Source: Actinomycetes bacterium (GTDB lineage Bacteria > Actinomycetota > Actinomycetes > Actinomycetales > Dermatophilaceae). From it: a stretch of 34,079 bases of DNA. Position numbers and translations under genes: made by a program. The DNA lies in the NCBI GenBank assembly GCA_029778715.1, contig JAKOPT010000128.1, forward strand, positions 1 through 34,079. Direction: 5' to 3'. This document shows, one piece after another, positions 1,355 to 33,841 of this stretch (the stretch's first letter is position 1; each line of letters begins with the position of its first letter). Under the pieces are notes generated by a model. That model was given only the letters and a program-made list of their open reading frames with translations, was not told the DNA's origin and did not search any database.

Positions 1355-1408
1355 GCCGCACGGGCCGAGAAAGTTGGGCAGAGCCGGAACAAGACGGCAT
1401 ACGACAGA

Positions 1409-1429
1409 GTTGAGCCTAGTGAACGCAAG
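1409..1429 (+). promoter_or_regulatory. Degenerate HAIR (HspR operator), upstream site
   Basis: GTTGAGC-N7-ACGCAAG matches the HAIR consensus CTTGAGT-N7-ACTCAAG at 11 of 14 arm positions with exactly the 7-base spacer. It lies 63 bp upstream of the stronger site before dnaK. HspR bound with DnaK represses this operon in Streptomyces and mycobacteria. Confidence 0.5.
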
Positions 1430-1471
1430 TTTGGCTGCCGACGGTTGCTCGCGGCATACCGGAGCGGTTAA

Positions 1472-1492: not shown

Positions 1493-1517
1493 TCTCAGAA
1501 CCAAGGAGACCCCCACC

Positions 1518-3407
1518 ATGGCCCGTGCAGTCGGTATCGACCTCGGCACCACCAACTCGGCCGTCGCCGTCCTCGAAGGCGGCGAGCCCACCATCATCGC
1601 CAACGCCGAAGGTGGGCGGACCACCCCCAGCGTCGTGGCGTTCAGCAAGAACGGCGACGTCCTCGTCGGCGAAATCGCCAAGCGCCAGGCCGTCACCAAC
1701 GTCGAGCGCACCGTCCGCAGCGTCAAGCGCCACATGGGCACCGACTGGAAGTCCGCCGAGATCGACGGCAAGCGCTACACCGCCCAGGAGATCAGCGCCC
1801 GCACCCTGATGAAGCTCAAGCGCGACGCCGAGGCCTACCTCGGGGAGCCGGTGACCGACGCCGTCATCACCGTCCCGGCGTACTTCGACGACCACGAGCG
1901 TCAGGCCACCAAGGAGGCCGGCGAGATCGCGGGCCTCAACGTGCTGCGGATCGTCAACGAGCCGACCGCCGCGGCCCTGGCGTACGGCCTCGACAAGGGC
2001 AAGGAGGACGAGCTCATCCTCGTCTTCGACCTCGGTGGCGGCACCTTCGACGTCTCCCTCCTCGAGGTCGGCAAGGACCCCGACGACGGGTTCGCGACCA
2101 TCCAGGTCAAGGCGACCAGCGGTGACAACCAGCTCGGGGGCGACGACTGGGACGAGCGGATCGTCCAGCACCTGCTCACCACGGTGAAGAACACCAGCGG
2201 CGTGGACCTGTCCAAGGACAAGATCGCCATGCAGCGCCTCCGTGACGCCGCCGAGCAGGCCAAGAAGGAACTGTCGTCCGCGACGAGCACCAACATCTCC
2301 CTCCAGTACCTCTCGATGTCCGAGAACGGCCCCATCCACCTCGACGAAACCCTCACCCGGGCCCAGTTCGAGCAGATGACCAAGGACCTCCTCGAGCGCT
2401 GCGAGAAGCCCTTCCACACCGTCATCAAGGACGCCGGTATCACCCTTTCCGGCATCGACCACGTGGTCCTCGTCGGTGGGTCCACCCGCATGCCCGCCGT
2501 CTCCGAACTCGTCAAGAAACTCACCGGCGGCAAGGAGCCCAACAAGGGCGTCAACCCCGACGAGGTCGTCGCGCTCGGCGCCTCGCTGCAGGCCGGCGTC
2601 CTCAAGGGCGAGCGCAAGGACGTCCTCCTCATCGACGTCACCCCGCTGAGCCTGGGCATCGAGACCAAGGGCGGGCTGTTCACCAAGCTCATCGAGCGCA
2701 ACACGGCCATCCCGACCAAGCGCTCCGAGGTGTTCTCCACCGCCGAGGACAACCAGCCGTCGGTGCTCATCCAGGTCTTCCAGGGCGAGCGGGAGATCGC
2801 GCAGCAGAACAAGGCGCTCGGCACCTTCGAGCTCTCCGGCATCGCCCCGGCCCCCCGCGGCGTCCCGCAGATCGAGGTCACCTTCGACATTGACGCCAAC
2901 GGCATCGTCCACGTGACGGCCAAGGACCGCGGCACCGGCAAGGAGCAGAAGATCACCATCTCCGGCGGCAGCGCGCTGTCCAAGGAAGAGATCGAGCGGA
3001 TGGTCAAGGACGCCGAGGCGCACGCCGAAGAGGACAAGAAGCGCCGCGAGGAGACCGAGGCCCGCAACCTCGGCGAGTCGCTCGTCTTCTCCACCGAGAA
3101 GTTCCTCTCCGAGTCCGGCGACAAGGTCGATCCCGAGCTCCGCAAGCCGGTCGACGAGGCCCTCGCCGCGCTCAAGGACGCCGTCAAGCCCGACTCCGGC
3201 GCCTCCACCGAGGACATCACCGCCAAGGTGAACACCCTCAACGAGGCCTCCCAGAAGATGGGGGCGGCCATGTATGCCGCGCAGTCCGAGGCCGCGTCCG
3301 GCTCCGGTTCGCAGGGTGGTTCCGGCAGCGCCGGCGACGCCCCGAAGGCCGACAACGACGACGACATCGTCGACGCCGAGATCGTCGAGGACGAGGACAA
3401 GAAGTGA
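1518..3407 (+). CDS. dnaK: Chaperone DnaK (Hsp70)
   Basis: 629 residues, the usual length. The Hsp70 ATPase domain opens [18 protein letters not shown] and contains [15 protein letters not shown] and [13 protein letters not shown]. The substrate-binding domain and helical lid follow, ending in an acidic tail ([16 protein letters not shown]). ATG 1518 follows AAGGAGA with good spacing and gives the canonical N-terminus; the frame extends upstream but that part is not coding. It is the first gene of dnaK-grpE-dnaJ-hspR. DnaK binds unfolded segments in an ATP cycle driven by DnaJ and GrpE, and in actinobacteria acts as co-repressor with HspR. Two HAIR operators precede it. A Tn7-like element ends about 160 bp upstream. 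Confidence 0.98.
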
Positions 3408-4078: not shown

Positions 4079-4171
4079 GACCGAGCGCGACCGGGCCGCA
4101 CCATAAGCCCGGGCGCGCGGCATACGACAAACCAACCCGACCCCACCCCACCGAGAGGAGGCACTGAGCCG

Positions 4172-5251
4172 ATGGCCAGCCAAGACTGGTTCGAGAAGGA
4201 CTTCTACGCGATCCTCGGTGTCCCTCAGGATGCCGACGACGCGGCGATCAAGAAGGCGTACCGCAAACTCGCCCGCAAGTACCACCCGGACAAGAACCCC
4301 GGTGACACCGCGGCCGAGCAGAAGTTCAAGGAGATCGGCGAGGCCCACTCGGTGCTCGCCGACACCGCCCAACGCCAGGAATACGACGCGATCCGACAGA
4401 TGGCCCGCGGCGGGGCCCGGTTCACCGCCGGTGGCCCCGGCGGCGGGGGCGGCGGTTTCGAGGACATCTTCTCCGCGTTCGGCGGGGGTGGTGGCACGCG
4501 GGTGCGGTTCGATACCGGCGGCGGGTTCCCCGGCGGCGGTTACGGCGGCGGCAACGCCGACCTCAACGACATGCTCGCCCAGATGTTCGGCGGTGCGGCC
4601 CGCGGGGCCGGACGCGGCGGCGCGGGCGCGGGCACCCGGGGCTATCCCGGGGGCGATTTCGGTGACTTTGGGGGGTATGCCGCGAGCCGCGGTCCCCGCA
4701 AGGGTCCCGACGTCGAGGCCCGCACCACGTTGTCCTTCCGCGACGCGGTGACGGGGTCCACGGTGAGCCTGCGCACTGAGGACGGCCGCACGATCAACAC
4801 CCGGATCCCTGCCGGGGTGCGGGACGGTCAGCGGATTCGGCTGCGCGGCAAGGGTGGTGAGGGTGAGCGGGGCGCCGAGCGCGGCGACCTGTTCCTCGTC
4901 GTCCACGTCGAGGCAGACCCGGTCTTCGGGCGCGACGGGGACAACCTCACCGTCGACCTGCCGGTCAGTGTCGCCGAGGCGACCCTGGGCGCGACGGTCG
5001 CGGTGCCCACGCTTGACGGCTCGCGGGTCAAGGTGCGCATCGCGCCGGGCACCCCCAGCGGGCGAGTGCTGCGGGTCAAGGGGCACGGCGTGGCGAAGAA
5101 GGGCGGCCATGGCGACCTGCTCGCCAAGGTCTCGGTCGTCGTCCCCACGCACCTCAGCGACGCTGCCCGCGCGGCCATCGAGACGTTGGCCGCCGAAACC
5201 GCCGACATCGACCCGCGGGCCGAGTTGTACGCCCGCGCCGGCGCATCGTGA
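4172..5251 (+). CDS. dnaJ: DnaJ-family co-chaperone without zinc finger
   Basis: 359 residues. The J domain covers residues 10-75 with HPD at 38-40. A long Gly/Phe-rich region follows (about 85-170), then two beta-barrel C-terminal substrate-binding domains from about 178 (RKGPDVEARTTLSFRDAV). No CxxCxGxG motifs occur, so it is a class B (CbpA/DnaJ2-like) J-protein rather than canonical zinc-finger DnaJ. ATG 4172 follows GAGAGGAGG. As third gene of the dnaK operon it is presumably the main partner of this DnaK, stimulating ATP hydrolysis and delivering substrates. Confidence 0.93.
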   Translation: MASQDWFEKDFYAILGVPQDADDAAIKKAYRKLARKYHPDKNPGDTAAEQKFKEIGEAHSVLADTAQRQEYDAIRQMARGGARFTAGGPGGGGGGFEDIFSAFGGGGGTRVRFDTGGGFPGGGYGGGNADLNDMLAQMFGGAARGAGRGGAGAGTRGYPGGDFGDFGGYAASRGPRKGPDVEARTTLSFRDAVTGSTVSLRTEDGRTINTRIPAGVRDGQRIRLRGKGGEGERGAERGDLFLVVHVEADPVFGRDGDNLTVDLPVSVAEATLGATVAVPTLDGSRVKVRIAPGTPSGRVLRVKGHGVAKKGGHGDLLAKVSVVVPTHLSDAARAAIETLAAETADIDPRAELYARAGAS

Positions 5252-5258
5252 GGATTCC

Positions 5259-5786
5259 GTGGCCTCGCTGAACGCCCCCCCGCCCGGTTCCGCTGGCGCT
5301 CGCGCCGGCGGCACCGGGCGCGGCCGCCTCCAGGGAGCGGGCGGCATGCCGGCCGGGGGAGCGACGCCCGACGAGACGACCCCGGTGTTCGTCATCTCGG
5401 TCGCGGCCGAGTTGGCCGGGATGCATGCCCAGACGCTGCGGCAGTACGACCGGCTCGGGCTCGTCACCCCCTCGCGCACCCGGGGCGGCGGGCGGCGCTA
5501 TTCCGCGCGCGACGTGTCGTTGTTGCGCGAGGTGCAGCGGCTCTCGCAGGAAGAGGGGATCTCGCTGCCGGGGATTGCGCGCATTCTCGAGTTGGAGAAC
5601 CAGGTGGATGCGTTGCACGCCCGCGTTGCCGAGTTGGTCGCCGAGGTCGACCGGCTGGCCTCGGGGACGGCGCGCCCGTCGCGGGTGTTCTCGGTCTCGC
5701 GCACCGGCGATGTGTATGCCGCGCGCCTCGGTGAGCGGCCGCGGCATACCCGCTCGCAAGCGTTGGTGCGCTGGGCCGGCCCCTGA
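5259..5786 (+). CDS. hspR: Heat-shock repressor HspR (MerR family)
   Basis: 175 residues. A Gly/Ala/Pro-rich leader of about 40 residues precedes a MerR-type winged helix with VFVISVAAELAGMHAQTLRQ, then YDRLGLVTPSRTRGGGRRYS and a coiled-coil helix. The HspR pattern of conserved Arg/Tyr after the turn is clear. GTG 5259 has GAGG 5 bases upstream and starts 7 bases after the dnaJ stop. HspR binds HAIR sites, here at dnaK (two) and clpB (one), giving negative feedback because hspR is the last gene of the operon. Two inverted GTATGCCG octamers (5714-5721 and 5742-5749) lie in its last 25 codons and could form a terminator-like hairpin. Confidence 0.93.
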   Translation: MASLNAPPPGSAGARAGGTGRGRLQGAGGMPAGGATPDETTPVFVISVAAELAGMHAQTLRQYDRLGLVTPSRTRGGGRRYSARDVSLLREVQRLSQEEGISLPGIARILELENQVDALHARVAELVAEVDRLASGTARPSRVFSVSRTGDVYAARLGERPRHTRSQALVRWAGP

Positions 5787-5965: not shown

Positions 5966-7006
5966 TTAGCGATCGAGCGCCGGATCCCGGGGCGATCCCG
6001 TGGCGCGGGTGGCCTCCAGTGCGCGCCTGCGCGACAACGCGATCACGAACCCCAGGCCGACGACGAGCGCGATCCCCGAGAGGTACTGCGCTTGCGAGGC
6101 GTGGAGCGGCCCGTAGCGCTCGTTGACCCGCAGGGGCTCGATGGCGAGACGTTCGGCGGCGGCGAGCACGGCATACAGGGAAAAGAGCCAACCGGCCGAG
6201 AACGGGTGTCGGCGGACCCCCCAGAGCACCGCGAAGAGGACGAGGCAGGCCACGGTCTCCCAGATGGGCGTCGGGTAGACGCCGGGGGCCGGGATGGTGA
6301 CGCCGAGGATGTTGCCCTCGTAGTGCTGCGCCCATAGCCAGGTCGGCAGCCACGCGGGCTTGGCGGCGAGGGCGGCGGGCAGGCCCCAGTCGCCGTCACC
6401 GGAGAGTTGGCAGCCGATCCGGCCGAGCGCGTAGCCGAGCATCATCGCGGGGGCGGCGGCGTCCATCGCGGGGCGCACGCGCAGGCCGGCGCGGCGGATG
6501 AGGGCGATGCCGACGAGGGTCGCGACGACAAGGCCGCCGATGACGTTGAAGCCCGAACGGGAGAGGAGGATGCCGCCGGGGTCGCGGGCGAGCGCTGCCG
6601 GGTCTTCGATGGCGGAGAACAGACGGGCGCCGGCAACACCGGCGAGGAGCATCCACAACCCGAACGTCGTGACGAAGTCGTCGAGGCCGCGCCGATCGGT
6701 GACGTGCCGGGGGCGGGACTTGGCGGAGGGCGACGGGGCGTCGTCTTCCGGTCGATCGTCGTCTGCGGCGGGGACGTCCGCTGGCTGGGGCGTTTGGTGC
6801 GTGGGAGGTGCGGCGAGCCGGCCCTCGTGCCAGAGCCGGCGCAGTTCGAGCCGGAACACCCAGGTGGCGGCCAGCACCGAGAGCACGAGGCTGAGCCCGA
6901 ACATGGGGATCGGCAGCGGCAGGTCCGCGCCGGTGAGGGCCCGGACGAGGTCCTGCAGATAGGGAAAAGCCACGAACGTTGCCTTGGTTGGTGGGGTGCG
7001 GACCAT
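5966..7006 (-). CDS. Prolipoprotein diacylglyceryl transferase-like membrane protein
   Basis: 346 residues with about seven hydrophobic segments and a disordered Pro/Asp-rich loop (about 65-105). The Lgt family pattern is visible: LGRIGCQLSGDGDWG corresponds to the phosphatidylglycerol-binding GRxGNFxNxE signature, and YPTPIWE to the HPTQLYE motif. Lgt transfers diacylglycerol to the lipobox cysteine at the outer face of the membrane. The usual Asn of the signature is Cys here, a variant form. I call it Lgt family and do not claim it is the main Lgt. ATG 7006 has no clear ribosome-binding site; GTG 6973, with AAGG upstream, is an alternative. The 236 bp upstream hold two octamer copies (7013, 7202) and no gene I can see. 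Confidence 0.8.
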   Translation of the reverse strand: MVRTPPTKATFVAFPYLQDLVRALTGADLPLPIPMFGLSLVLSVLAATWVFRLELRRLWHEGRLAAPPTHQTPQPADVPAADDDRPEDDAPSPSAKSRPRHVTDRRGLDDFVTTFGLWMLLAGVAGARLFSAIEDPAALARDPGGILLSRSGFNVIGGLVVATLVGIALIRRAGLRVRPAMDAAAPAMMLGYALGRIGCQLSGDGDWGLPAALAAKPAWLPTWLWAQHYEGNILGVTIPAPGVYPTPIWETVACLVLFAVLWGVRRHPFSAGWLFSLYAVLAAAERLAIEPLRVNERYGPLHASQAQYLSGIALVVGLGFVIALSRRRALEATRATGSPRDPALDR

Positions 7007-7242
7007 TGGAGCGTATGCCGTGCCGCTCGGTGGGGTGGGCGGTGTTTCGTCCTCGTCGCGTCGCCGCGGGGCTGCTGGTCGGTGCTGTGGCCGTCGGCGG
7101 CCCTCACTCCTGGTGCGGCCTCGCCCTGCTCCCCCGCCGACCGCCTACCGTGCAGTAAGTGGGGTGTTCACAACGTGTACTGCCCGGTAGGGCGGGCGCA
7201 GCGGCATACCGAGTTAACAGCGGCGCCCATGCCGAATGGCGC

Positions 7243-8659: not shown

Positions 8660-8776
8660 GGTGACCACATTAGGAGGCCGCTCCCAGGTTGCGGTATGCC
8701 GAGCCCCCTTCAGGGCACGCGTCTTGCTCAACGGGGATGCCGTATGCCGCCATGACCGGCGTACGCGCGCATCTTG

Positions 8777-8965: not shown

Positions 8966-11530
8966 GTGGAGCTGAAGCCGACGAACAAGGTCGCCGAGGC
9001 CCTGGCGCTCGCCCGGCGGGCCGCCCAGGCCGCCGGTCATGCCGAAATCACCCCTGACCAGTTGACGAGCAGCCTCATTCAACTCGACACGCCCCAGGCC
9101 GATGCGCTGCTCCAGGCCGCCGGCACCGGGGCCTCGCACGTCCTCGCCCAGGCCGATGCGCGGCTGCGTAAGCAACCGACGACAAGCGGCGGGGCGCAAG
9201 CCCCGACCTTCGGGCGGGCCGCCCTAGAGGTGCTCCAGCGCGCCGACACCCTCATGCGCGCCAAGGGGGACACTTTCCTCGCCTTCGACCTGCTCCTGCT
9301 CGCCCTCGCCGAGACCGGTCACCTGGCCGCCGTCGAGAAGCGGGGCGCCAAGGATATGGAAGTCAAGATCGACGCCCTCCGCGGGGGACGCAAGGTCACT
9401 TCCGAGGTGCCCGCCGAGGGCGGGGAGTCGCTGGCCAAGTACGGCACCGACCTCACCCAGGCGGCCCGCGACGGCAAGCTCGATCCCGTCATCGGCCGCG
9501 ACGCCGAGATCCGGCGGGTCGTCCAGGTCCTCTCCCGGCGCACGAAGAACAACCCGGTCCTCATCGGCGAACCCGGCGTCGGAAAGACCGCCGTCGTCGA
9601 GGGGTTGGCCCAGCGCATCGTCGACGGCGACGTCCCGGAGAGCCTGCGCGACAAGCGCCTCATCAGCCTCGACCTGGGCGCCATGGTCGCGGGCGCGAAA
9701 TACCGCGGTGAATTCGAGGAGCGCCTCAAGGCGGTCCTGGAGGAGATCAAGGCCAGCGACGGCGAGATCGTCACCTTCATCGATGAGTTGCACACCGTCG
9801 TCGGTGCCGGGGCGAGCGGCGAGGGCGCCATGGACGCCGGCAACATGCTCAAACCCATGCTCGCCCGCGGCGAGCTCCGGCTTGTCGGCGCCACCACGCT
9901 CGACGAGTTCCGCGAGCACATCGAGAAGGACCCGGCGCTGGAGCGCCGCTTCCAGCAGGTCTTCGTCGGCGAACCGAGCGTCGAGGACACCATCGCCATC
10001 CTCCGTGGCCTCAAGGAACGTTACGAGGCCCACCACAAGGTCGAGATCGAGGACTCCGCGCTCGTCGCCGCCGCCTCCCTGTCCGACCGGTACATCACTG
10101 GTCGTCAACTGCCCGACAAGGCCATCGACCTTGTCGACGAGGCGGCCTCCCGGCTGCGCATGGAAATCGACTCCAGCCCCGTCGAGATCGACCAGCTCCG
10201 CCGGGCCGTCGACCGGCTCACCATGGAGGAACTCCACCTGGCCAAGGAAACCGACCAGGCCTCCATCGACCGGCTCGCCAAACTCCGCACCGACCTCGCC
10301 GAGAAGAACGAGGAACTCGCCGCCCTCACCGCCCGCTGGGAGGCCGAGAAGTCCGGCCTCAACAAGGTCGGTGACCTGCGGGCCCAACTCGACGACCTGC
10401 GCACCCGCGCCGAGCGGCTCCAACGCGAGGGCGACTACGAGGGCGCCAGCCGCATCCTCTACGGCGAGATCCCCGCACTCGAAAAGGAACTGGTCGCCGC
10501 CAACGAGGCCGAACAGGCTCGCTCCGGTGACCTCATGGTCAAGGAGCGCGTCGGGGCCGACGACATCGCCGAGGTGATCTCGGCGTGGACCGGCATACCG
10601 GCGGGCCGTCTCCTCCAAGGCGAAACCGAGAAGCTCCTCTCCATGGAGTCGATCATCGGCGCCCGCCTCATCGGCCAAACCGAGGCCGTCCGCGCCGTCT
10701 CCGACGCCGTGCGCCGCAGCCGCGCCGGCCTCGCCGACCCCGACCGGCCCACCGGCAGTTTCCTCTTCCTCGGCCCCACGGGCGTCGGCAAGACCGAACT
10801 CGCCAAGAGCCTCGCGGACTTCCTCTTCGACGACGAGCGGGCCATGGTCCGCATCGACATGAGTGAGTATGCCGAGCGGCACGCCGTGGCTCGCCTCATC
10901 GGTGCTCCCCCCGGTTACGTCGGCTACGAAGAGGGCGGGCAACTCACCGAGGCGGTGCGCCGGCGCCCCTACTCCGTCGTCCTCCTCGACGAGGTGGAGA
11001 AGGCCCACCCCGAGACCTTCGACATCCTCCTCCAGGTCCTCGACGACGGTCGCCTCACCGACGGACAGGGTCGCACCGTCGACTTCCGCAACGTCATCCT
11101 CGTCATGACCTCCAACCTCGGCAGCCAGTTCCTCGTCGACCCGATGCTCTCCCCGGAGGAGAAGCGCGAGGCCGTCATGGGCATCGTGCGGACCGCGTTC
11201 AAACCCGAGTTCCTCAACCGGCTCGACGAGGTCGTCGTGTTCGAGGCGCTCACCCGGGACGAGTTGGCCCACATCGTCGACCTCCAGGTCCGGGCGCTCG
11301 CGACTCGCCTCCACGAGCGGCGCATCGTCCTCGAGGTGACCGACGCCGCCCGCACTTGGCTCGCCGAGCAGGGCTACGACCCGGCCTACGGGGCGCGCCC
11401 GCTGCGCCGCCTCATCCAAAAGGAGGTCGGCGACCGGCTCGCCCGCGCGCTGCTCTCCGGTGCGGTGCGCGACGGGTCGACGGTCACCGTTGATGTCGAC
11501 CCCGACTCCGGCGGGCTCGTGCTCGCCTGA
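8966..11530 (+). CDS. clpB: ATP-dependent disaggregase ClpB
   Basis: 854 residues, the normal length. An N-terminal repeat domain comes first, then AAA-1 with GEPGVGKT (about 201-208) and the Walker B region [15 protein letters not shown]. The long coiled middle domain (about 410-520) binds DnaK, and AAA-2 has GPTGVGKT (about 603-610). GTG 8966 has AAGGAG upstream and gives [20 protein letters not shown], a sensible ClpB start. The hexamer threads aggregated proteins through its pore and hands them to DnaK/DnaJ/GrpE, all encoded nearby. The HAIR at 8893-8913 indicates HspR control. An 80-bp dispersed element also lies upstream. Confidence 0.97.
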
Positions 11531-11648: not shown

Positions 11649-11684
11649 CATAGGGACGGTATGCCGCGGCATACCGTCCCTATG
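11649..11684. terminator. 36-bp perfect palindrome made of two head-to-head GTATGCCG octamers
   Basis: The 18-base arms (11649-11666 and 11667-11684) are perfectly complementary with no loop base. The centre is GTATGCCG followed at once by CGGCATAC. It lies 118 bp after the clpB stop and 47 bp before the next gene, so it is well placed as a clpB terminator. There is no T tract. As DNA it could also form a cruciform. In Neisseria and Haemophilus, inverted uptake sequences commonly serve as terminators. Confidence 0.6.
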
Positions 11685-18109: not shown

Positions 18110-18212
18110 ACGTCCGACCCTACCGGGAGGTATGCCGCGTGCTCCCGCCCGTGCCCAACGTCACCCTCGTGCCGGGCTGGTCGGTTCGCTTCTCTCCGTG
18201 CCTGTCTCTTGC

Positions 18213-21539: not shown

Positions 21540-21557
21540 CGGCATACGATCGGAGGC

Positions 21558-24747: not shown

Positions 24748-26355
24748 ATGACATCGACACATCCGCTGGCCGGGGCACTCGACCGGCTCGCCGCGGCCGG
24801 GCGGGCCGCTGGCGCCGACCCGGCCACCGCGCGGGCCGAGGGCGAGTCACTGGCCGCGACCATCGCCGAGGCGGCCACTGGGGCCTTCGCCGACTGGGGG
24901 GCAGCGACCGGAGGCGGCGGCGCGGAGGAGTTCATGGTGGCCGCGTCCCGAGGGCGGCGGTGGCGGGTGGGGCCGACCCCGACGCTGGCCGCGCTGCTCG
25001 ACACCGACCCGGCCGGGGCCCGGGCCTACGCGTCGGCGCTGGCTGAGGTATGCCGCGCTGCCGCCTCGCTCGGGCAACCCTCGGCGCGCACCGCGGAGAA
25101 CGCCCGCACCGCGGCAGCCGCCCAACTGTCAGCGATCGGCGCATCCGGTGATCGCTCGCCGGGGTCGTCCGCTGAGGAAGCATCGACGGCGCCCCTAACC
25201 CCGGCGGTGCCCGTCGCGCCGTCGGAGCCGCCGAGCGAGGCGATGACCGATGCGGTCCGCGGCTTGTGGTCGCAGGTGATGGGGGAGTTGGAGACGGTGG
25301 GAGCCCGGGTGCGCGAGGTCTCCTCCTCGCCCGAACCGCCCCCGCGCGGCCTCGACCTCGGGCCGGTCGACCCGTGGGCACCGGGCCGGTTCACCATGGA
25401 CCCGCAGGGGCCGCCCTCGTCACCCGACCCGGTCCCGCCCGGCGTCCCCCCGACCAACGGGACGGCACCGACGACGCCCGGGAACGGCATACCGGCAACC
25501 CCGGATGCCGAAACAACGGCGACGCCGCCCCCGGAACTGCCGCCGGCGCGACCGTTGGCGGAATTGCTCGCCGAACTCGACGCCCTCACCGGGTTGCGCG
25601 CGGTCAAGGCCGAGATCCACCGGCAGGTGGCCCTGCTCCAGGTCGAGGCTAAACGCAAGGAGGCCGGCCTCAAGACTCCGGCGATCACCCGGCACCTGGT
25701 GTTCGTCGGCAACCCTGGCACCGGCAAGACGACGGTCGCCCGGCTCGTCGGCGGCATCTATCGGGCGCTCGGGCTGCTGACCAAGGGGCAACTGATCGAG
25801 GTCGACCGCAGCGAACTGGTCGCCGGCTATCTCGGGCAGACCGCGATCAAGACCGCCGAGGTCGTCGCCTCCGCGGTCGGCGGCGTGCTGTTCATCGACG
25901 AGGCCTACGCGCTCGCCGGCGACCAGTACGGCACCGAGGCGATCGACACGCTCGTCAAGGAAATGGAGGACCGCCGCGACGACCTCGTCGTCATCGTGGC
26001 CGGCTATCCCGTCCCGATGGCGGTCTTCGTCGCCCAGAACCCCGGCCTGGCCAGCCGGTTCCGCACCACCATCGAGTTCGCGGATTACACCGACGACGAG
26101 TTGGTGTCGATCTTCGAATCCCTGGCCGCGGCCGACGATTACGACGTCGACGACGCGGTGCGGGCCCGGTTCCGTGAACTCCTCACCGGCACCGAACGCG
26201 GGCCCTCATTCGGCAACGGCCGGTTCGCCCGCAACGTCCTCGAAGCCGCGATCGGCGCCCACGCCTGGCGGCTGCGGGACGTCGCGGCCCCCGACATTCA
26301 GGCCCTGCGCGCCCTCACCCCCGAGGACCTCACGCCCGAGGAGGGCACCTCATGA
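24748..26355 (+). CDS. CbbX/CfxQ (SpoVK-like) AAA+ ATPase
   Basis: 535 residues. Residues 1-145 are a helical Ala-rich domain, then a long Pro/Thr-rich linker (about 150-265), then one AAA+ module: Walker A GNPGTGKTT (about 320-328), the pore-loop-like AGYLGQT, Walker B VLFIDEAYAL (about 379-388), and SRFRTTIEFADYTDDEL with the arginine finger region. The CbbX group remodels client proteins (Rubisco in CbbX). Here the client is unknown, and the neighbours suggest a signalling or membrane complex. ATG 24748 is preceded by GGGAGGGA. The stop overlaps the GlnX-like start (ATGA). Confidence 0.9.
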   Translation: MTSTHPLAGALDRLAAAGRAAGADPATARAEGESLAATIAEAATGAFADWGAATGGGGAEEFMVAASRGRRWRVGPTPTLAALLDTDPAGARAYASALAEVCRAAASLGQPSARTAENARTAAAAQLSAIGASGDRSPGSSAEEASTAPLTPAVPVAPSEPPSEAMTDAVRGLWSQVMGELETVGARVREVSSSPEPPPRGLDLGPVDPWAPGRFTMDPQGPPSSPDPVPPGVPPTNGTAPTTPGNGIPATPDAETTATPPPELPPARPLAELLAELDALTGLRAVKAEIHRQVALLQVEAKRKEAGLKTPAITRHLVFVGNPGTGKTTVARLVGGIYRALGLLTKGQLIEVDRSELVAGYLGQTAIKTAEVVASAVGGVLFIDEAYALAGDQYGTEAIDTLVKEMEDRRDDLVVIVAGYPVPMAVFVAQNPGLASRFRTTIEFADYTDDELVSIFESLAAADDYDVDDAVRARFRELLTGTERGPSFGNGRFARNVLEAAIGAHAWRLRDVAAPDIQALRALTPEDLTPEEGTS

Positions 26356-27599
26356 CTCAGATCGCGGCGAGTCCTCGCCCTGCGCCGGGCCTCGTCGAGT
26401 CCCGTGAGATCGCCCAGGGCCGGGCCATCCCGGCATACCTCACCCGGCTGCGGCTGGGAGTGGCCCTGCTCATGCTCACGGTCGCCACGCTCACCGTCGG
26501 CCAACTGTTCTTGGGGCGGGCCGCGGCGAATCGCGCCGCCGCCGACGCCGAACAGGTGGCCCGCATCCAAACCATCAAGGTCGACCTGTTGCGGGCCGAC
26601 GCCCTTGCGACCAACGCCTTCCTGACCGGCGGGCTCGAAGCCACCGCCCAGCGCACTGCCTACGACCAGGCCATCGGCGCGGCATCCGCGACGATCGCCG
26701 CTGCGTCGAGCGCCCAATCCCTCGACCGGGACGCGCTCGCCGAACTCAACGCCTTGCTCGTCCGGTATGCGGCGGGCATGGAGGTCGCGCGCGCCAACAA
26801 CCGGCTCGGTCTGCCCGTCGGGGCGGCCTACCTGCGCGCGGCGAGCGCGGACCTGCGCGGACGGGGCATGGTGCTGACCGATGCGCTGCTCACGGCGAAC
26901 ACGGTCCGGGCCCGGAGTTCGCTCGCCGATCAACACCCCATGTGGGTGGCGCTCCCCGGGCTGCTCGCCCTCGGCGGACTGTATGCCGCCAACCGCTGGA
27001 TCGCGACCCGGTTCCGGCGCCGCATCAACGTGGGCATCGCCGTCGCCGGTGGGCTCACTCTCCTCCTCACCCTCGGTGCAGTGGCGGTGTCGAGTGCGCA
27101 GGCGCTGGAGAACACGAGGTTGCAGGACGGCTCGTACGGTGCCCTGCTTCGGGTGGCGCAGGCGCGCAGTTCCGCCAATGCGGCAAAGTCGAGTGAGAGT
27201 CTGCGGCTCATTGCGCGCGGTTCGGGAAAGTCGTTCGAAGAGGCATGGGCGACCCAGTCGAAGGACGTGAGCGGGCTGATACCCGACACGCTCCGCGACC
27301 CCTGGACGGCATACACCAAGGCCCATGCCGCACTCGTGGCCAAGGACGATGCCGGTGATTGGGACGGGGCCGTCGCCTTGGCGACGAGCACGGCCGCCGG
27401 TGCGGCGACTCCGGCGTTCCAGGAGTTCGACACCCAGTTGGCTGCGGAACTGGACGGTGATCGGGCGAGTGTCGACAGCGCCCTCAACAGCGGCAACTGG
27501 GTGCCCGTTCTCGTCGCCGTGCTCGCGGGGCTCGCCGGGCTCGGGGCCACCTGGGCGAGTTGGCGCGGAGTGTCGCGCCGTCTGGAGGAGTACGTATGA
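26352..27599 (+). CDS. glnX: GlnX-like four-helix membrane sensor
   Basis: 415 residues. Four membrane segments: about 30-55 (VALLMLTVATLTVGQLF), 197-217, 224-247 (GIAVAGGLTLLLTLGAVAVS) and 384-404. Two helical extracytoplasmic domains of about 140 residues lie between TM1-TM2 and TM3-TM4, like paired chemoreceptor sensor bundles, and almost nothing is left in the cytoplasm. This is the layout of mycobacterial GlnX, which passes the state of the lipoprotein GlnH across the membrane to kinase PknG. Order glnX-glnH...pknG is kept here. ATG 26352 overlaps the AAA+ stop; the stop overlaps ATG 27596. Confidence 0.85.
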   Translation: MTQIAASPRPAPGLVESREIAQGRAIPAYLTRLRLGVALLMLTVATLTVGQLFLGRAAANRAAADAEQVARIQTIKVDLLRADALATNAFLTGGLEATAQRTAYDQAIGAASATIAAASSAQSLDRDALAELNALLVRYAAGMEVARANNRLGLPVGAAYLRAASADLRGRGMVLTDALLTANTVRARSSLADQHPMWVALPGLLALGGLYAANRWIATRFRRRINVGIAVAGGLTLLLTLGAVAVSSAQALENTRLQDGSYGALLRVAQARSSANAAKSSESLRLIARGSGKSFEEAWATQSKDVSGLIPDTLRDPWTAYTKAHAALVAKDDAGDWDGAVALATSTAAGAATPAFQEFDTQLAAELDGDRASVDSALNSGNWVPVLVAVLAGLAGLGATWASWRGVSRRLEEYV

Positions 27600-28873
27600 A
27601 CCTCAACGGCCCTGGTTCCGCGAAGTCTGTTCTGGGAAGTCCTGGTCCTGCCAGTCCAGATCCCGGGCCGGTTCGGGCTCGGCCGGCTGCACACAAGCGA
27701 CCAATAGGTGGGTTAGTGACACGAAGGAAGGACCGGTTGTGGGGCACCCTTCCGGCGGGTGTGCATAAGCGACCAATAGGTGGGTTAGTGACACCCCCGA
27801 CCGCCCCCACCCGCCCCACGGGTGTGCATAAGCGACCAATAGGTGGGTTAGTGACACCCCCGATTGGCAACAAGGCACCTATTGGTCGAATAGTGACGCG
27901 GGGGGTCATCGTGCCCCTCCTGCTCGCCGTCGCCCTCGCCGTCGGCGCCTGCTCGGGCCCCACCGCGACCGTCGTCCCGTCGGCCTCGCCCACGTCGTCC
28001 GGCGCGTCCACGTCCACCGCGTCCCCGAGCCCCTCGGCATCCGCTGCGACATGCACCAACGCCACCGCGTCCTATGCTCCCGACGGGCCACTTCCCGGTC
28101 CGGACGCCCTCCCCTCCGGGTCGACGATGGCGGCCATCAAGGCCCGGGGTCGCCTCATTGTCGGCGTGTCGGCCGACACCTACCTCCTCGGCTCGCGCAA
28201 CCCCTTGACCGGCACCATCGAGGGCTTCGACATCGACCTTGCGACCGCGATCGGGGAGGCCATCCTCGGCCCCAACCCGCGCATCCAACTGCGCGTCATC
28301 ACCGCTACCCAGCGACTCCCGCTGCTCCAGGCCAAGGAGGTCGACGTCGTCGTGCGCAACATGACGATGACCTGCGACCGGTGGACCAAGATCGGGTTCT
28401 CGGCCGTCTACTACCAGGCCGGGCAGAAGATCCTGGCCCGTAAGGGCAGCGCGATCACCGATGTCGCCTCCCTCGCCGGCCACCGGGTGTGCGCCCCGAC
28501 GGGCACGTCGAGCATGGACACCCTGCGCCGGCTCGCCCCCACCGCGACCGCTGTCCCCTCCGACAGTCACACCGGCTGCCTCGTCCTCTTCCAAAGCGGG
28601 GCCGTCGACGCGATCACCGGGGACGACACCGTCCTGGCCGGGTTGGCCGCCCAGGACCCGTATGCCGTCGTCACCGCGGCTCCCGCGTTCACCCAGGAGC
28701 CCTACGGCGTCGGCGTCAACGCCGGGTCCGTCGATCTGGCGAAGTTCGTCAATGCCCTCCTCGAAAAGATGCGTGCCGATGGCCGGTGGCAGCACAGTTA
28801 CGACCGGTGGCTGGCCCCCACCCTCGGCGCAGGCACCGGCCAGCCGGCTCCCACATACGGGCGCACCCCGTGA
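27596..28873 (+). CDS. glnH: GlnH-like amino-acid-binding lipoprotein with repeat-bearing 5' extension
   Basis: 425 residues if read from ATG 27596, which overlaps the GlnX stop (ATGA). The first 99 codons carry four copies of a dispersed repeat and give no plausible domain. The signal peptide only starts at about residue 100 (VTRGVIVPLLLAVALAVGAC) with lipobox VGAC. GTG 27893, in frame, would give a normal 326-residue lipoprotein but has no clear ribosome-binding site. After a Ser/Thr linker comes a family-3 solute-binding domain (LIVGVSADTYLLGSRNPLTG, EGFDIDLATAIGEAILGP, DVVVRNMTMTCDRW, ITGDDTVLAGLA). In Mycobacterium GlnH binds Asp/Glu and signals through GlnX to PknG. There is no ABC permease or ATPase here, which supports sensing rather than uptake. 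Confidence 0.87.
   Translation: MNLNGPGSAKSVLGSPGPASPDPGPVRARPAAHKRPIGGLVTRRKDRLWGTLPAGVHKRPIGGLVTPPTAPTRPTGVHKRPIGGLVTPPIGNKAPIGRIVTRGVIVPLLLAVALAVGACSGPTATVVPSASPTSSGASTSTASPSPSASAATCTNATASYAPDGPLPGPDALPSGSTMAAIKARGRLIVGVSADTYLLGSRNPLTGTIEGFDIDLATAIGEAILGPNPRIQLRVITATQRLPLLQAKEVDVVVRNMTMTCDRWTKIGFSAVYYQAGQKILARKGSAITDVASLAGHRVCAPTGTSSMDTLRRLAPTATAVPSDSHTGCLVLFQSGAVDAITGDDTVLAGLAAQDPYAVVTAAPAFTQEPYGVGVNAGSVDLAKFVNALLEKMRADGRWQHSYDRWLAPTLGAGTGQPAPTYGRTP
27699..27887. repeat. Four copies of the CACCTATTGGTC repeat in the 5' part of glnH
   Basis: Three copies read on the minus strand (cores at 27699-27711, 27771-27783 and 27834-27846), flanked by GTCACTAACC and GCTTATGCACACC-like sequence. The fourth (27876-27887) is in plus orientation, so copies 3 and 4 form perfect 12-base inverted arms around a 30-base loop. 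The minus-strand copies share ACCCACCTATTGGTC with the 42-bp array in the MFS gene. Spacings of 72 and 63 bp keep the frame open. Confidence 0.92.
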
Positions 28874-30057
28874 TCCGCCACCAGGCCCCGACCGCGCCCG
28901 GCGCCCTCGGAGAACGCCTCGACCCCGGCGCCGTGCAGGTCTACCTCGCGGACTTGGCTGCGTGGAGCACCGCCCGTCGCGCCGAACTCGACGAGTTCGA
29001 CGCCGAGGCATTGGCCGCCAATCGCGCGCACGACCTCACCGCGGACCTCACCTTGTCGATGGCCCTGTGGAAGTCGGTCGCCGACCGGCTCGCCTTGCTC
29101 CAGGCGACCTGGGATGGTGGCCGGGTGGGCCCGCGCGAGCGCGAACGCCTCTCGGTCCTCATCTGGGGCCGACTCGACACGACCACCGCCGGTCCGGCCA
29201 CCAACGGCAGCGGCAGTGTCGCGGTGTCCTTGCCCGAGGCCTGCCGGCTCAGTGATGCGCTCGCCAGCCAGTTGCGGGTGCGCTTGGCCCTCGACCCTGC
29301 CGCCGACGAGTTCGCCCGCCGCCTCAAAGACCTTCGGGCACAGGTCGAACGCCTCCGCGACCAGGTCGCCCTCGAACCCGAGGCCGCCCGCCCGCCGCTC
29401 CTCGCCCACGTCGACGACATCGCGAGCCGCACCAGCACGCTCACCGACAAGGCGAGCCGTGGCGCGGACATCGGCGGTCTCATCGGGCCCCTCGAAAACG
29501 ACGCCGCCCGCCTCGAACACGACCTCATCGTCGGTGCGGCCCGCCGCCGCGACGCGGCCGACCTGGCCCGCGCCGTCGCCGCACAGCGCGACACGCTGCT
29601 CGCCCGTGGCGCCGCCCTCCAAGCACTGGCGACCCAGACCGTCGCCGAGGTCGACCCGGCCCCCAACTACGCCGTGCCCGACGTGGCTGCGCTGGGCCCG
29701 GTGCCCGGTGACCCCGGCGCGCTCGCGGCATACCGGCAACGGCTGGGGCGCGTCGGGCAGGCGCTCGAGGTGGCCCAGGAGGCGTATGCCGCCGCGCTGC
29801 GCTCCCGCTCCGACCTCACGGCACGCCTCGACGCCTCCGACATCCGGGCCGGCGCGATCGGGGTCGCCGACCTCCCCGACGTGCGGGTCGCGTCCCAGAC
29901 GGCCCGCGCCCTGCTTGCCCGGCGCCCCGCGCCGCTGCCGGTGGCGGGTGCCGCGGTCGCACTCTGCGAAGCCTGGGTGGCGTGGTGGGGGTCCGAGCGG
30001 GGGGTCCAGCTGGCGGACCGTCCTCGGGTGAGCGTCGCGAAGGAGAGTGGCTCGTGA
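28870..30057 (+). CDS. Helical coiled-coil protein of unknown function between glnH and pknG
   Basis: 395 residues, not recognised. No signal peptide or membrane segment. Almost wholly helical: LGERLDPGAVQVYLADLAAW, heptad-like stretches (EFARRLKDLRAQVERLRDQV; about 150-235), LARAVAAQRDTLLARGAALQ and a C-terminal helix with WVAWWGSERGV. GTG 28870 overlaps the GlnH stop and its own stop overlaps the kinase start, both by 4 bases. This placement between sensor and kinase suggests a cytoplasmic scaffold, a kinase partner or a substrate. That is inference only. It is not part of the classic mycobacterial glnX-glnH-pknG set as I know it. Confidence 0.82.
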   Translation: MIRHQAPTAPGALGERLDPGAVQVYLADLAAWSTARRAELDEFDAEALAANRAHDLTADLTLSMALWKSVADRLALLQATWDGGRVGPRERERLSVLIWGRLDTTTAGPATNGSGSVAVSLPEACRLSDALASQLRVRLALDPAADEFARRLKDLRAQVERLRDQVALEPEAARPPLLAHVDDIASRTSTLTDKASRGADIGGLIGPLENDAARLEHDLIVGAARRRDAADLARAVAAQRDTLLARGAALQALATQTVAEVDPAPNYAVPDVAALGPVPGDPGALAAYRQRLGRVGQALEVAQEAYAAALRSRSDLTARLDASDIRAGAIGVADLPDVRVASQTARALLARRPAPLPVAGAAVALCEAWVAWWGSERGVQLADRPRVSVAKESGS

Positions 30058-32498
30058 AGTGCACACAGCCGGGGTGCCCCGGGTCGATCCTCGATGGCTA
30101 TTGCGACGTCTGCGGGTCGCCGGTGCCTTCCCCCCAGTCAGCAGCCGGTATGCCGCCCGCTTCCCCGCCCGCCAACGTCACCGGTGGTGCGACGGCCGGC
30201 TCCGCCGCGGTGGCCGCGGCGCCGGTGGGTTCGGCCCGCGAGCGGTCCGCGGCCGGGGAATCCCCGCTCGGCGACGAGGCGACCCAACCGGCTGCGGCCG
30301 CGGGGAGCACCTCGGTGCGGTTGGACTCGGCGGCGTTCGGGTCGGCCCGGGTCGGCACGAACGCCACCCGCCGGTTGCGGTCGGGGTCGTTGCGGCTGCG
30401 TGCGGCTCGCCTCGGGGCCGGGCTGACCCAGGTGCCACCCGCCCCGGCCGTCGACCCGGCGGGGGCGATCAAGGCCCTGCCGCAGGTGCCGGAGGACAAA
30501 CGGTTCTGCGCGTCCTGCCAGGGCCCGGTCGGGCGGTCCGTCGAGGGCCGACCGGGCCGGGAGGAGGGGTTCTGCCCCGCGTGCGGCACGGCATACTCCT
30601 TCACCCCCAAACTCAAGCCCGGGGATCTGGTCGCGGGGCAGTACGAGGTGGCGGGGGCCTTGGCGCACGGCGGGCTCGGCTGGATCTACCTCGCCCGCGA
30701 CCGCAACGTCTCCGACCGGTGGGTGGTCCTCAAGGGCCTGCTCAACTCCGGTGACGCCGACGCGCTCGCGGCTGCCATCGCCGAGCAGCGTTTCCTCGCC
30801 CAGGTCGAGCACCCGCTCATCGTCGAGATCTACAACTTCGTCACGCATGACGGAGCCGGCTACATCGTCATGGAGTATGTCGGGGGCCACTCGCTCAAGG
30901 ACATCCTCAAGGAGCGGATGGCCGCGGCCGGTGGGACCTACGATCCGCTGCCGGTCGACCAGGCGTTGGCTTTCATCGTCGAGATCCTGCCCGCGTTCCA
31001 ATACCTGCACGACCTCGGGCTCGTCTACTGCGACTTCAAGCCCGACAACCTCATCCAGGTCGGCGACGCCGTCAAACTGATCGACCTCGGCGGGGTGCGG
31101 CGCCTTGACGACCGCGACTCGGCGATCTACGGCACGATCGGCTATCAAGCCCCCGAGGTGCCGACCGCGGGCCCGTCGGTGGCCAGCGACATCTGGACCA
31201 TCGGGCGGACCCTGCTCGTGCTGTGCATGGAGTTTCGCGGGTACCAGAGCACCTACCTGACCTCGCTGCCCGATCCGGCGAGCACGCCCCTGTTCCAGCG
31301 GTACGACTCGCTCTACTGGTTGCTCGCCAAGTGCTGCGCCCTCGACCCCGACGACCGGTTCGCCTCGGCGGACGAACTGCGGGTTCAGGCGCTCGGCGTC
31401 CTCCGCGAAGTCGTCGCGATGAGCACCGACGGGATCGCGCAGACCTCGGCCGCGTCGCCGCTGTTCACGACCCCCGCGGTGGCCTCGGACGAGGTCGACT
31501 GGTCGGACCTGCCGGGGTTGCGCCCCGATCCGAGCGACCCGCAGCATTCGTGGGTGACGTCGTTGGCCCCCGGGTCGCCCGACCAGCGGCTCGCTGACCT
31601 CGCCCAGGCCACCACGGATAGCGCGGAGGTGTGGTTGGCTCGGGGCACCGAACACCTGCGTTCGGGCAACATCGGGGATGCGATCGCCGACGCTCAGAAA
31701 CTGCTCGCCGACGACCCCTGGGACTGGCGGGCCCTGTGGCTGACCGGACTGGCCGAGTTGCACAACGGTCGCCCAGAGGCGGCGCGGGGCAGTTTCAACG
31801 CCGTCTACCGGCAGGTGCCCGGGGAGTTGGCGCCGAAACTCGCGCTCGCGGTCGCGTGCGAGGCGAGCGGGCAGGCGGAGGTCGCCGAGGGCCTCTACCG
31901 CACCTGCGCCGCCACCGATGCGGCCTACCTGGCGCCGGCGGCGTTCGGGATCGCCCGGATCGCCGCTGCGCGCGGCGAGGTCGAGGCCGCCGTCGCGGCT
32001 CTCGACCGGGTGCCTTCGACGAGTCGGGGGTTCGCCCAGGCGCGGCGGTTGCGCGCCGAGGCTCTGCTCGCCGGTGTGCGCGTCCGTGCCAATGGCCCCG
32101 CGGCCGGCGCGGCGTCCGCTCCGGGCTCGAAGTCCGGCCCGGCGTCTCCCGCGCGTGGCTCGGTGCGTGGTTCCGCTGCTGCTCCCACTCCCGCCCCGGC
32201 GGAGGCTGGGGCCGACCTTGGCAGGCTCGACGCGGCATACCGGAGCCTGGACGGGGTGACCCTCGGGGTGGGGGAGCGCGACCGGTTGGTCGCCCGCATT
32301 CTCGAGCGGGCTTTGGGTGTGGTGGCCGCGACGGGCCGGGCGCCGGGGACCGTCGGCCCGTATGCCGCGGACGAACGTTCGCTGCGCGGCGGGCTCGAGG
32401 CGACGTACCGGAGTCTGGCGCGGGAGGCGCCGACCCAGAACGAGCGGATCGACCTGGTCAACCAGGCCAATACGGTGCGTGCCTGGAGTCTGACGTGA
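30054..32498 (+). CDS. pknG: PknG-like Ser/Thr protein kinase with extra N-terminal zinc ribbon
   Basis: 814 residues. N-terminal zinc ribbon with Cys3, Cys8, Cys17 and Cys20 (GYCDVCG), a disordered region, then the PknG rubredoxin-like pair FCASC (about 152-155) and FCPAC (about 174-177). The kinase follows (about 190-450): AHGGLGWIYLARD, the lysine in VVLKGL, the PknG-type catalytic loop VYCDFKPDN (no HRD) and LIDLGGVR instead of DFG. The C-terminal half is TPR-like (LRSGNIGDAIADAQKLLADD; ALWLTGLAELHNGRPEAARG). In mycobacteria and corynebacteria PknG phosphorylates OdhI/GarA to control 2-oxoglutarate use in response to amino acids. GTG 30054 overlaps the previous stop. The PP2C gene overlaps its end. 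Confidence 0.93.
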   Translation: MKCTQPGCPGSILDGYCDVCGSPVPSPQSAAGMPPASPPANVTGGATAGSAAVAAAPVGSARERSAAGESPLGDEATQPAAAAGSTSVRLDSAAFGSARVGTNATRRLRSGSLRLRAARLGAGLTQVPPAPAVDPAGAIKALPQVPEDKRFCASCQGPVGRSVEGRPGREEGFCPACGTAYSFTPKLKPGDLVAGQYEVAGALAHGGLGWIYLARDRNVSDRWVVLKGLLNSGDADALAAAIAEQRFLAQVEHPLIVEIYNFVTHDGAGYIVMEYVGGHSLKDILKERMAAAGGTYDPLPVDQALAFIVEILPAFQYLHDLGLVYCDFKPDNLIQVGDAVKLIDLGGVRRLDDRDSAIYGTIGYQAPEVPTAGPSVASDIWTIGRTLLVLCMEFRGYQSTYLTSLPDPASTPLFQRYDSLYWLLAKCCALDPDDRFASADELRVQALGVLREVVAMSTDGIAQTSAASPLFTTPAVASDEVDWSDLPGLRPDPSDPQHSWVTSLAPGSPDQRLADLAQATTDSAEVWLARGTEHLRSGNIGDAIADAQKLLADDPWDWRALWLTGLAELHNGRPEAARGSFNAVYRQVPGELAPKLALAVACEASGQAEVAEGLYRTCAATDAAYLAPAAFGIARIAAARGEVEAAVAALDRVPSTSRGFAQARRLRAEALLAGVRVRANGPAAGAASAPGSKSGPASPARGSVRGSAAAPTPAPAEAGADLGRLDAAYRSLDGVTLGVGERDRLVARILERALGVVAATGRAPGTVGPYAADERSLRGGLEATYRSLAREAPTQNERIDLVNQANTVRAWSLT

Positions 32499-33841
32499 GT
32501 GACGCGGGCCGGGGCGCGTGTGCGGCCTGCGGGCACCCACTCGGCGAGGGCGCGGCATTCTGCGAGGCGTGCGGCGCCAAGGTGAGTTGGTCGAGCGGGG
32601 CGGCGGCACCGACAGCCGCGTCCTCGGCTGCGGAACCGGGCCCGGCCGGGTCGCCGTTGCCTTCTCAACCGGTGCCGCCGCTGGGAACGGCAGCCGCGCG
32701 GGCGCAGGGGGGAGCGGTCGCGCCGCCTGCCCAGGGCGCCGACGAGGTCCCCATTTCGCGGGCCACCTCACCGGCACGGTGGCGCGAAGACCCGGCGGCT
32801 CCACCCCCGGGACCGACGGTGTGTCTGCAGTGCGGCGGGGCGGTCGCTGCCGACGGCTATTGCGAACAGTGCGGTGTCAAGGCGCCGTCGGGGCGTGACC
32901 ACTTCCGGGAGACGCCGGCCCCCTGGGTGGCCGGGGTGTGCGATCGCGGCCTCGTTCATGCCCGCAACGAAGATGCGATGGCGCTGTGGGCGCAGGGCGA
33001 GAGCGCGGACGTAGGGCGGGCGGCGCTCGTCGTCTGCGACGGGGTGTCGTCGTCGGTCGACTCGGATGTCGCGGCCCTCGCGGGGGCACGGGCGGCCCGG
33101 GAAGTCCTGCGCGCACCGCTGCCGGCCGGCTTGGGGGTGCCCGAGAGTCGCGAGGCGGCGGCGACCCGGGCGTTCGTCCTGGCGGCCGAGGCGGCCAACG
33201 CCGCGGTCGTCGCCCACACCGCGCTCTCGTCGCCCAACCCCGCGTCGTGCACCTTCGTTGCCGCCACGATCGAACCGGCGCCGGCCGGTGACGCGAGCGC
33301 GCCTGGAGCGGGCGGCATCCGGATTCGGTATGCCGTCATCGGTGACTCCCGCGCCTACTGGTTGCCGGACGCGGGGGAGGGCGTGCAGTTGACGACGGAC
33401 GACTCGATGGCCTCGCTGCTCATCGCCGGCGGTATGCCGCGTGCCGAGGCCGAGGCATCCCCGCAGGCGCACGGGATCACCAAGTGGTTGGGCAAGGACA
33501 GCCCCGACATCGTGCCGGTCGTCGGGGCCCTGGTTGTCACCCAGCCCGGTTGGGTGCTGGTGTGCAGCGACGGCCTGTGGAACTACGCCTCCGAGCCGGC
33601 CGCTCTCGCCGAGGTGATGCGCGCGTATGCCGCCCCGGCCACGCCCCCGGAGACGGTCACCCCAACTGTCCCGGCGGAGGCCCCCGTCCCCGTTGTCTCG
33701 CCGGAGTCGGTTGCTCCGGCTGCGCTGCCGGAGTTGCCTGCGCCGGTTGCGCCTGGGGGGCTGGCTCTGCACTTGGTCGAGTTCGCCAACGCCCAGGGTG
33801 GGCGCGACAACATCACCGTTGCGTTGGCGCGGCTGGGGTAG
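32495..33841 (+). CDS. PP2C-family Ser/Thr phosphatase with two N-terminal zinc ribbons
   Basis: 448 residues. First zinc ribbon CAACG...FCEACG (Cys9, 12, 23, 26), a Pro/Ala linker, second ribbon CLQCG...YCEQCG (from about 110), then a PP2C domain from about 147: DRGLVHARNEDAM, VVCDGVSSSVDS (metal-binding Asp-Gly), YAVIGDSRAYWL, LVCSDGLWNYA and GGRDNITVALARL. A 40-residue Pro/Val-rich insertion sits before the last motif. PP2C enzymes remove phosphate from Ser/Thr using Mn2+/Mg2+. Overlap with pknG by 4 bases makes it the likely partner that reverses the kinase. Last gene of the run. Confidence 0.93.
   Translation: MSDAGRGACAACGHPLGEGAAFCEACGAKVSWSSGAAAPTAASSAAEPGPAGSPLPSQPVPPLGTAAARAQGGAVAPPAQGADEVPISRATSPARWREDPAAPPPGPTVCLQCGGAVAADGYCEQCGVKAPSGRDHFRETPAPWVAGVCDRGLVHARNEDAMALWAQGESADVGRAALVVCDGVSSSVDSDVAALAGARAAREVLRAPLPAGLGVPESREAAATRAFVLAAEAANAAVVAHTALSSPNPASCTFVAATIEPAPAGDASAPGAGGIRIRYAVIGDSRAYWLPDAGEGVQLTTDDSMASLLIAGGMPRAEAEASPQAHGITKWLGKDSPDIVPVVGALVVTQPGWVLVCSDGLWNYASEPAALAEVMRAYAAPATPPETVTPTVPAEAPVPVVSPESVAPAALPELPAPVAPGGLALHLVEFANAQGGRDNITVALARLG

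Follow-up and report, generated by a model that had tools for sequence, protein, structure and literature searches.

A frequent non-palindromic octamer in genomes of the Phycicoccus elongatus family as a likely DNA uptake sequence

The contig JAKOPT010000128.1 of GenBank assembly GCA_029778715.1, from an Actinomycetes bacterium of the GTDB family Dermatophilaceae, is 34,079 nucleotides long and was analyzed at its full length (the window). The octamer GTATGCCG is repeated in the window, and in the genome to which it belongs, far above expectation. By analogy with known systems we regard this word as a likely DNA uptake sequence, a tag of self DNA distributed over the whole genome; uptake itself is what we infer. 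The original prediction for the window had suggested an uptake-type or HIP1-type signature (HIP1, highly iterated palindrome 1). Our results support a signature of this kind, and of the two types we prefer the uptake type because the word is non-palindromic, because it exists in one-base dialects and in inverted hairpin pairs, and because it is kept up in an all-or-none manner.

Our recount of the window was identical to the count given originally: 51 exact copies, 29 on the plus and 22 on the minus strand, spanning positions 1395–33632. Dinucleotide shuffles of the window (n = 100) contained 0.63 copies on average and 3 at most. Two results had been named beforehand as refuting the prediction, a count predicted by a Markov model and a motif restricted to the window. 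With an order-2 Markov model of the window the expected number is 1.14 copies, and by this score GTATGCCG is the top over-represented 8-mer. Nor is the word a local one, since the whole source genome (G000) holds 4,205 copies, 2,081 on one strand and 2,124 on the other, or one per 732 bp. This genome is a draft of 3,077,377 bp in 162 contigs and is 82.7% complete; genome-wide figures are pattern counts, the Markov model having been run on the window. The reversed word, which served as a control, occurs 123 times in the genome (54 + 69), so that GTATGCCG is about 34 times commoner. Near-matches had been described as scarce and we found them to be so: 23 of the 24 one-mismatch neighbors have 0–3 copies in the window, the exception being GGATGCCG with 11. 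In G000 GGATGCCG has 683 copies, which is in the normal range for the family. By its sequence GTATGCCG is not a palindrome and contains no internal 4-bp palindrome; beyond the eight bases C or T is preferred at position 9 and G at position 10. No copy lies at positions 1–1354, which had been pointed out as the stretch of a transposon. This is true, but the absence alone says little because a stretch of this length should contain only about two copies. Within the same stretch a minus-strand open reading frame (ORF) at 601–1317 gave a weak match to a TnsA-like endonuclease domain (E 3e-4, below the cut-off).

For comparison we used the nearest named genome, Phycicoccus elongatus Lp2 (G002), which NCBI lists under Intrasporangiaceae and GTDB under Dermatophilaceae as Phycicoccus_A (PMC9123174). 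Genes were called with our own script and not with a standard gene finder. The window copies comprise 35 genic and 16 intergenic ones, with an intergenic density 2.3 times the genic density; in G002 the word is 1.9 times denser in intergenic than in genic DNA. The statement that copies occur in all reading frames as well as between genes holds insofar as every frame is used, but the frames are strongly biased. Sense copies in the window mostly lie in phase 2, where they read Tyr-Ala (18 of 22), and antisense copies in phase 1, where they read Ala-Tyr (9 of 13). The corresponding fractions in G002 are 122 of 144 sense and 61 of 89 antisense copies. The sense orientation was favored in all three samples (112:62, 216:145 and 132:114 sense to antisense); known uptake sequences likewise prefer one orientation within reading frames (PMC2346458).

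The bias for frames reading Tyr-Ala or Ala-Tyr would also be expected if the word were a by-product of mutation or codon usage, i.e. of a codon pair or dipeptide bias. We give this explanation almost no credence. Synonymous-codon shuffles, in which the proteins and the codon usage of each gene were held constant, yielded 2.5 genic copies in the window (maximum 7, n = 100) against 35 observed, 17.9 against 195 in 164 kb of G000, and 40.7 against 404 in the G002 sequence sampled. Since these values are far below those observed, codon choice does not account for GTATGCCG, as had been claimed from the window. The word is moreover about twice as dense outside genes, and 104 of the 235 TAT codons sampled from G000 sit within it.

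Between relatives the word either stays intact or decays, in an all-or-none manner. We compared orthologous sites in 1,377 orthologue pairs from 24 motif-rich genomes or loci. GTATGCCG was met by an exact copy in 44.8% and by a form with one mismatch in 10.2% of 2,400 comparisons covering 300 distinct sites; as a single site enters many pairs, the percentages are the result. For all other orderings of these letters the fractions were 20.8% exact and 25.6% with one mismatch (221,735 comparisons). The ratio of exact to one-mismatch forms is thus 4.4 for the word vs 0.81 for the control words. In 25 gene pairs of G000 and G002, 34 of 66 sites were exact and 3 had one mismatch, while 104 of 471 control sites were exact.

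GTATGCCG marks the family to which Phycicoccus elongatus belongs (GTDB Dermatophilaceae). Among its 149 genomes, 81 have a density of 0.15 copies per kb or more, 11 have 0.05–0.15 and 57 less than 0.05; these thresholds are our own, and five genomes that use GGATGCCG instead fall in the poor or middle class. G000 is the densest of all (1.37 per kb). In a sample of 296 genomes from the phylum none of the 293 non-family genomes reaches 0.15 per kb and the three family members alone are rich. The 22 order-mates beyond the family have 2–167 copies, close to their reversed-word controls. Within the family even close relatives diverge: three genomes of one genus have 3,681 (G117), 1,062 (G026) and 19 (G091) copies. 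At least 10 copies in 14–22 kb were found in loci of Knoellia, Pedococcus cremeus, Intrasporangium oryzae, Humibacillus, Terracoccus, Terrabacter and Flexivirga, and none in the loci examined from Janibacter melonis, Dermacoccus abyssi, Phycicoccus jejuensis and Intrasporangium flavum. In a tree built from ComEC, with 63 rows of which 60 had an assigned state, switches between presence and absence of a word number at least 11, where loss and regain are indistinguishable. All states together change 14 times, compared to a mean of 24 after shuffling. The tree came from a quick search with support from the Shimodaira-Hasegawa-like approximate likelihood ratio test (SH-aLRT) only, and the middle-class genomes G021 and G071 were scored as absent.

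Leads to variant words were taken from the top 8-mers in the 10–20 kb around comEC of 40 family genomes, normalized over a panel, and were followed by genome-wide counts. These counts confirm three one-base dialects, GGATGCCG, GTATGACG and GAATGCCG, throughout which the pattern G-N-ATG-N-CG is constant. GGATGCCG exceeds 0.6 per kb in 7 of the 149 family genomes. Five of them are rich in this word (G124 4,480, G027 3,949, G087 3,838, G018 3,816 and G139 3,619 copies) and have few copies of GTATGCCG (361, 40, 272, 235 and 288, respectively). Two congeners of G124 contain both words, with 2,195 GGATGCCG and 1,217 GTATGCCG copies in G067 and 2,099 and 1,189 in G101. G003 and G155 are mildly raised in GGATGCCG (about 0.35–0.38 per kb) and were left out of the count of users. 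GTATGACG has 1,557–1,966 copies (>0.3 per kb) in six genomes alongside 1,734–2,542 of GTATGCCG, and GAATGCCG has 3,135 copies (0.85 per kb) in one genome of the 149, G014, alongside 1,025 of GTATGCCG. Two words in one genome have also been reported for the DNA uptake sequences (DUS) of Simonsiella muelleri (PMC3630211).

GGATGCCG is used in a second family of the order as well (f19). By our own calculation its density in 17 genomes of this family is 0.8–1.3 per kb in 8, 0.3–0.7 in another 8 and 0.15 in one, while in the other families (212 genomes) the density goes no higher than about 0.29 per kb. A named Microbacterium locus has 30 copies of GGATGCCG in 22 kb, and f19 is therefore likely the Microbacteriaceae. 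GTACGCCG, the top word in several 20-kb loci, was dropped as a dialect: the search of the 296 genomes gave a broad background, and none of these genomes approached the density that the other words attain. Two further candidate dialects were each seen in one locus of 15–22 kb, GTATGCGG in Nostocoides sp. F2B08 (L101) and GTATGGCG in Flexivirga endophytica (L105).

Copies of the word that are close neighbors are preferentially arranged head to head. In 1.395 Mb of motif-rich loci with 1,022 sites we found 35 neighbor pairs at a distance of up to 35 bp, 21 of them pointing inward (+-), 9 outward and 5 the same way, where 6.5 are expected per class (Poisson p 4e-6 for the inward excess); in this set the locus L034 was searched with two words, and a 3.5-kb part of G002 is included twice. 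Some inward pairs grow into long perfect hairpins 20–42 bp beyond the end of a gene (for instance L049:3414, L052:8821 and L164:2650), others sit within genes. The window contains four inverted pairs, each with the plus-strand copy first. One forms a hairpin close to a gene end (5714..5749, copies starting at 5714 and 5742), one consists of abutting copies that form an intergenic hairpin about 130 bp beyond a ClpB-like gene (11659..11674, copies at 11659 and 11667), one forms a hairpin shortly ahead of the end of a major facilitator superfamily (MFS) gene (15391..15411, copies at 15391 and 15404) and one forms a hairpin in the 3’ portion of a gene (22785..22818, copies at 22785 and 22811). Close inverted pairs would form terminator-like hairpins. 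In Neisseria inverted DUS pairs have been linked to terminators (PMC3630211, PMC2397512). Pairs at a distance of 36–60 bp in the motif-rich loci show the opposite picture, with 18 outward, 7 inward and 5 same-way arrangements.

A test of strand bias had been proposed along with the original prediction. We carried it out on G002, a single contig, and saw no polarity: 20 regions amounting to 400 kb have 151 forward and 153 reverse copies (chi-square p 0.97; origin not mapped). Counts are Poisson-like in 19 of these regions. An over-represented octamer with so even a spread could be a Chi-like regulator, which would stop a nuclease of the RecBCD, AddAB or AdnAB type and act as a label of self DNA at double-strand breaks, and the low counts described below for a prophage and for a glycosyltransferase region would suit such a role. 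Chi is polar in E. coli, and the comparison fails because of this polarity. In addition, the density in G000 (one copy per 0.7 kb) and the 34-fold excess are far above what is the case for E. coli Chi, and we know of no inverted hairpin pairs for Chi. We thus consider a Chi-like function improbable. The even spread would equally agree with a site for chromosome segregation, architecture or nucleoid binding, of the type of KOPS (FtsK orienting polar sequences), AIMS (architecture imparting sequences) or parS, or with a protected restriction-modification site. KOPS and AIMS are polar from origin to terminus, which G002 does not reflect, and restriction sites are typically avoided and not enriched. 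One-base dialects, at times two in one genome, would be awkward for a fixed structural site. This group of explanations appears still less probable to us.

The remaining region of G002 contains glycosyltransferase genes and a weak match to an integrase core; it has 2 copies of GTATGCCG where about 16 would be expected and was picked because it is low. In the GTATGCCG-poor glycosyltransferase region covered by the loci L198 and L062 (G002:C1:1742000-1780000) the first 18 kb carry 17 copies of GGATGCCG, with 4 expected, and this stretch may have come from a donor of the other dialect. Genome G592 contains a prophage, about 15 kb long, with 2 copies of GGATGCCG, compared to 16 according to the genome mean and 8.6 according to the flanks of the prophage (p 0.009). 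The prophage was recognized by a portal protein with relatives in 86 phage records and by a serine integrase, and its borders were set by us. A search for the phage portal family PF04860 in 60 motif-rich genomes gave no match above the cut-off and one weak match.

The DUS of the Neisseriaceae resemble GTATGCCG in many respects: they occur as thousands of short non-palindromic copies with dialects between related taxa and strong exact conservation (PMC3630211), and both two dialects in one genome and inverted pairs have been described (PMC3630211, PMC2397512). GTATGCCG is nevertheless not a DUS of this kind, because the CTG core reported for all DUS dialects (PMC3630211) is missing from the word and its complement. 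It is an unrelated sequence of 8 (to about 10) bases in a high-GC Gram-positive host with pilus loci of the Tad/Flp type. The uptake signal sequences (USS) of the Pasteurellaceae have a 9-base core that is unrelated to GTATGCCG, and they belong to Gram-negative uptake. They are similar in that they number hundreds to thousands of copies with a preferred orientation in reading frames (PMC2346458); their receptor has been predicted (PMC12616744).

Cyanobacterial HIP1 is also a highly iterated octamer that is low or missing in some members of its clade (PMC4390886). Very high iteration, patchy occurrence within the clade and exact upkeep would fit GTATGCCG being a word of this type, linked to DNA modification or mismatch repair and with no role in uptake. 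HIP1 is, however, palindromic (GCGATCGC), carries methylase sites within it and is associated with methylases (PMC4390886). As GTATGCCG is non-palindromic, the parallel fails on this point and we judge a HIP1-like function to be improbable, too.

How would a DNA uptake sequence be read in these bacteria? Competence machinery predicted to recognize GTATGCCG would consist of a Tad (Flp) pilus, ComEA and ComEC. A surface receptor, possibly a TadE/TadF-like minor pilin or ComEA, would bind the word, and DNA containing it would be taken up preferentially. Recombination of such DNA would then repair and spread intact copies, and on this proposal single-mismatch forms would be rare because intact copies are restored. 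Dialects would arise through shifts in receptor preference. A precedent is the Flp/Tad-dependent transformation of Micrococcus luteus, which has comEA/comEC and two tad loci and requires both loci as well as comEA/EC (PMC4322843); the term “uptake sequence” is absent from this study and from two later ones.

The genes needed are indeed present, as a check for competence genes suggested with the original prediction showed; motif-poor relatives carry them too. ComEC was found in 145 of 149 family genomes, and comEA adjoins comEC in 39 of 40 loci, the exception being G000, in which the locus is cut by a contig end. ATPases of the T2SSE family were above the cut-off in 23 of 24 genomes; the motif-poor G008 (97% complete) is the one without. 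Two tad-like loci occur in motif-rich and motif-poor genomes alike. According to family models both tad loci of G002 encode T2SSE and T2SSF proteins, one of them together with two TadE-like and one TadE/G-like pilin, the other with an Ssd-like ATPase, a DUF4244 protein and a TadE minor pilin. ComEA and ComEC of G002 match their families as well, some of the matches being under curated cut-offs. Rich and poor genomes both have ComEC and Tad-type ATPases, and the presence of either was ruled out as what separates the two kinds. Because the machinery is shared with motif-poor relatives, an uptake function is something we infer.

Several observations weigh against uptake. Motif-poor relatives possess the same comEC and tad loci, i.e. 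the machinery does not track the word. Broken com genes do not explain the motif-poor state either: frames of comEC or comEA are split in 2 of 20 motif-poor loci (comEC of G091 and comEA of G016, each over two frames; L029 and L018) and equally in 2 of 20 motif-rich ones (comEC of G020 and G058; L041 and L046), the poor set including two GGATGCCG users, G018 and G027. Downstream of tadC, the second tad locus of the GGATGCCG-rich G027 contains no member of the shared pilin families, and the same holds for the motif-poor G091. We found no receptor, and nothing in the compared com and tad loci tracks the word; a scan for pilins by their processing-site pattern was not used, as it missed pilins shown by BLAST families. 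The islands tested were few, with the glycosyltransferase region selected for its low count, and one Microbacterium phage, a single phage genome, carries 7 copies of GGATGCCG in 16.7 kb. Finally, we found no transformation experiment for this family in our literature searches and know of none.

Uptake sequences are the standard case of bacterial sex limited to kin and are established in two Gram-negative families. Among the matches listed in our search of open papers (subscription papers and preprints being outside its scope) no uptake sequence was described for the Actinomycetota. As a text string the octamer or its complement is contained in 3,142 papers, and the 20 listed among these have nothing to do with it. 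With regard to the two families of one order we are evenly divided on a broader proposal: an old, shared code for sequence-specific DNA exchange of the form G-N-ATG-N-CG (GTATGCCG, GGATGCCG, GAATGCCG, GTATGACG) would be read by a receptor of the Tad pilus, would have been lost repeatedly and altered letter by letter, and would tell exchange kin by the word. If true, this would to our knowledge be the first genome-repeated uptake sequence beyond the Neisseriaceae and Pasteurellaceae and the first with a Tad pilus as its reader. Among high-GC Gram-positive bacteria, such a system would mean that the design evolved anew, likely with a different type of pilus. The 81 word-bearing genomes out of 149, the changes in presence on the ComEC tree and several dialect switches offer natural replicates, and GTATGCCG could be used as a marker for foreign DNA in these genomes. 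The family includes wastewater bacteria that accumulate polyphosphate (PMC9123174).

Apart from the four pairs the copies in the window stand singly. On the plus strand they lie within an Hsp70/dnaK gene (3272..3279), a dnaJ gene (4675..4682) and the ClpB-like gene (10867..10874), and furthermore at 7013..7020, 8694..8701, 8742..8749, 12395..12402, 13160..13167, 13881..13888, 17555..17562, 18130..18137, 19824..19831, 19859..19866, 21425..21432, 22374..22381, 24395..24402, 25048..25055, 26981..26988, 28660..28667, 29784..29791, 30148..30155, 32360..32367, 33328..33335, 33432..33439 and 33625..33632. On the minus strand one copy is intergenic (4118..4125) and one is again within the ClpB-like gene (10591..10598); the others are located at 1395..1402, 1452..1459, 6169..6176, 7202..7209, 11919..11926, 14703..14710, 16934..16941, 19719..19726, 21025..21032, 21540..21547, 25485..25492, 26431..26438, 27307..27314, 29726..29733, 30589..30596 and 32233..32240.

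The window also contains a 42-bp tandem repeat at 14093–14341 with about 6 copies, each including CACCTATTGGTC. A predicted MFS transporter has this repeat within its open frame, between the two Pfam halves. CACCTATTGGTC is found again at 27700–27886 within the long ORF of a solute-binding protein, and ACCAATAGGT occurs ten times where 0.02 are expected.

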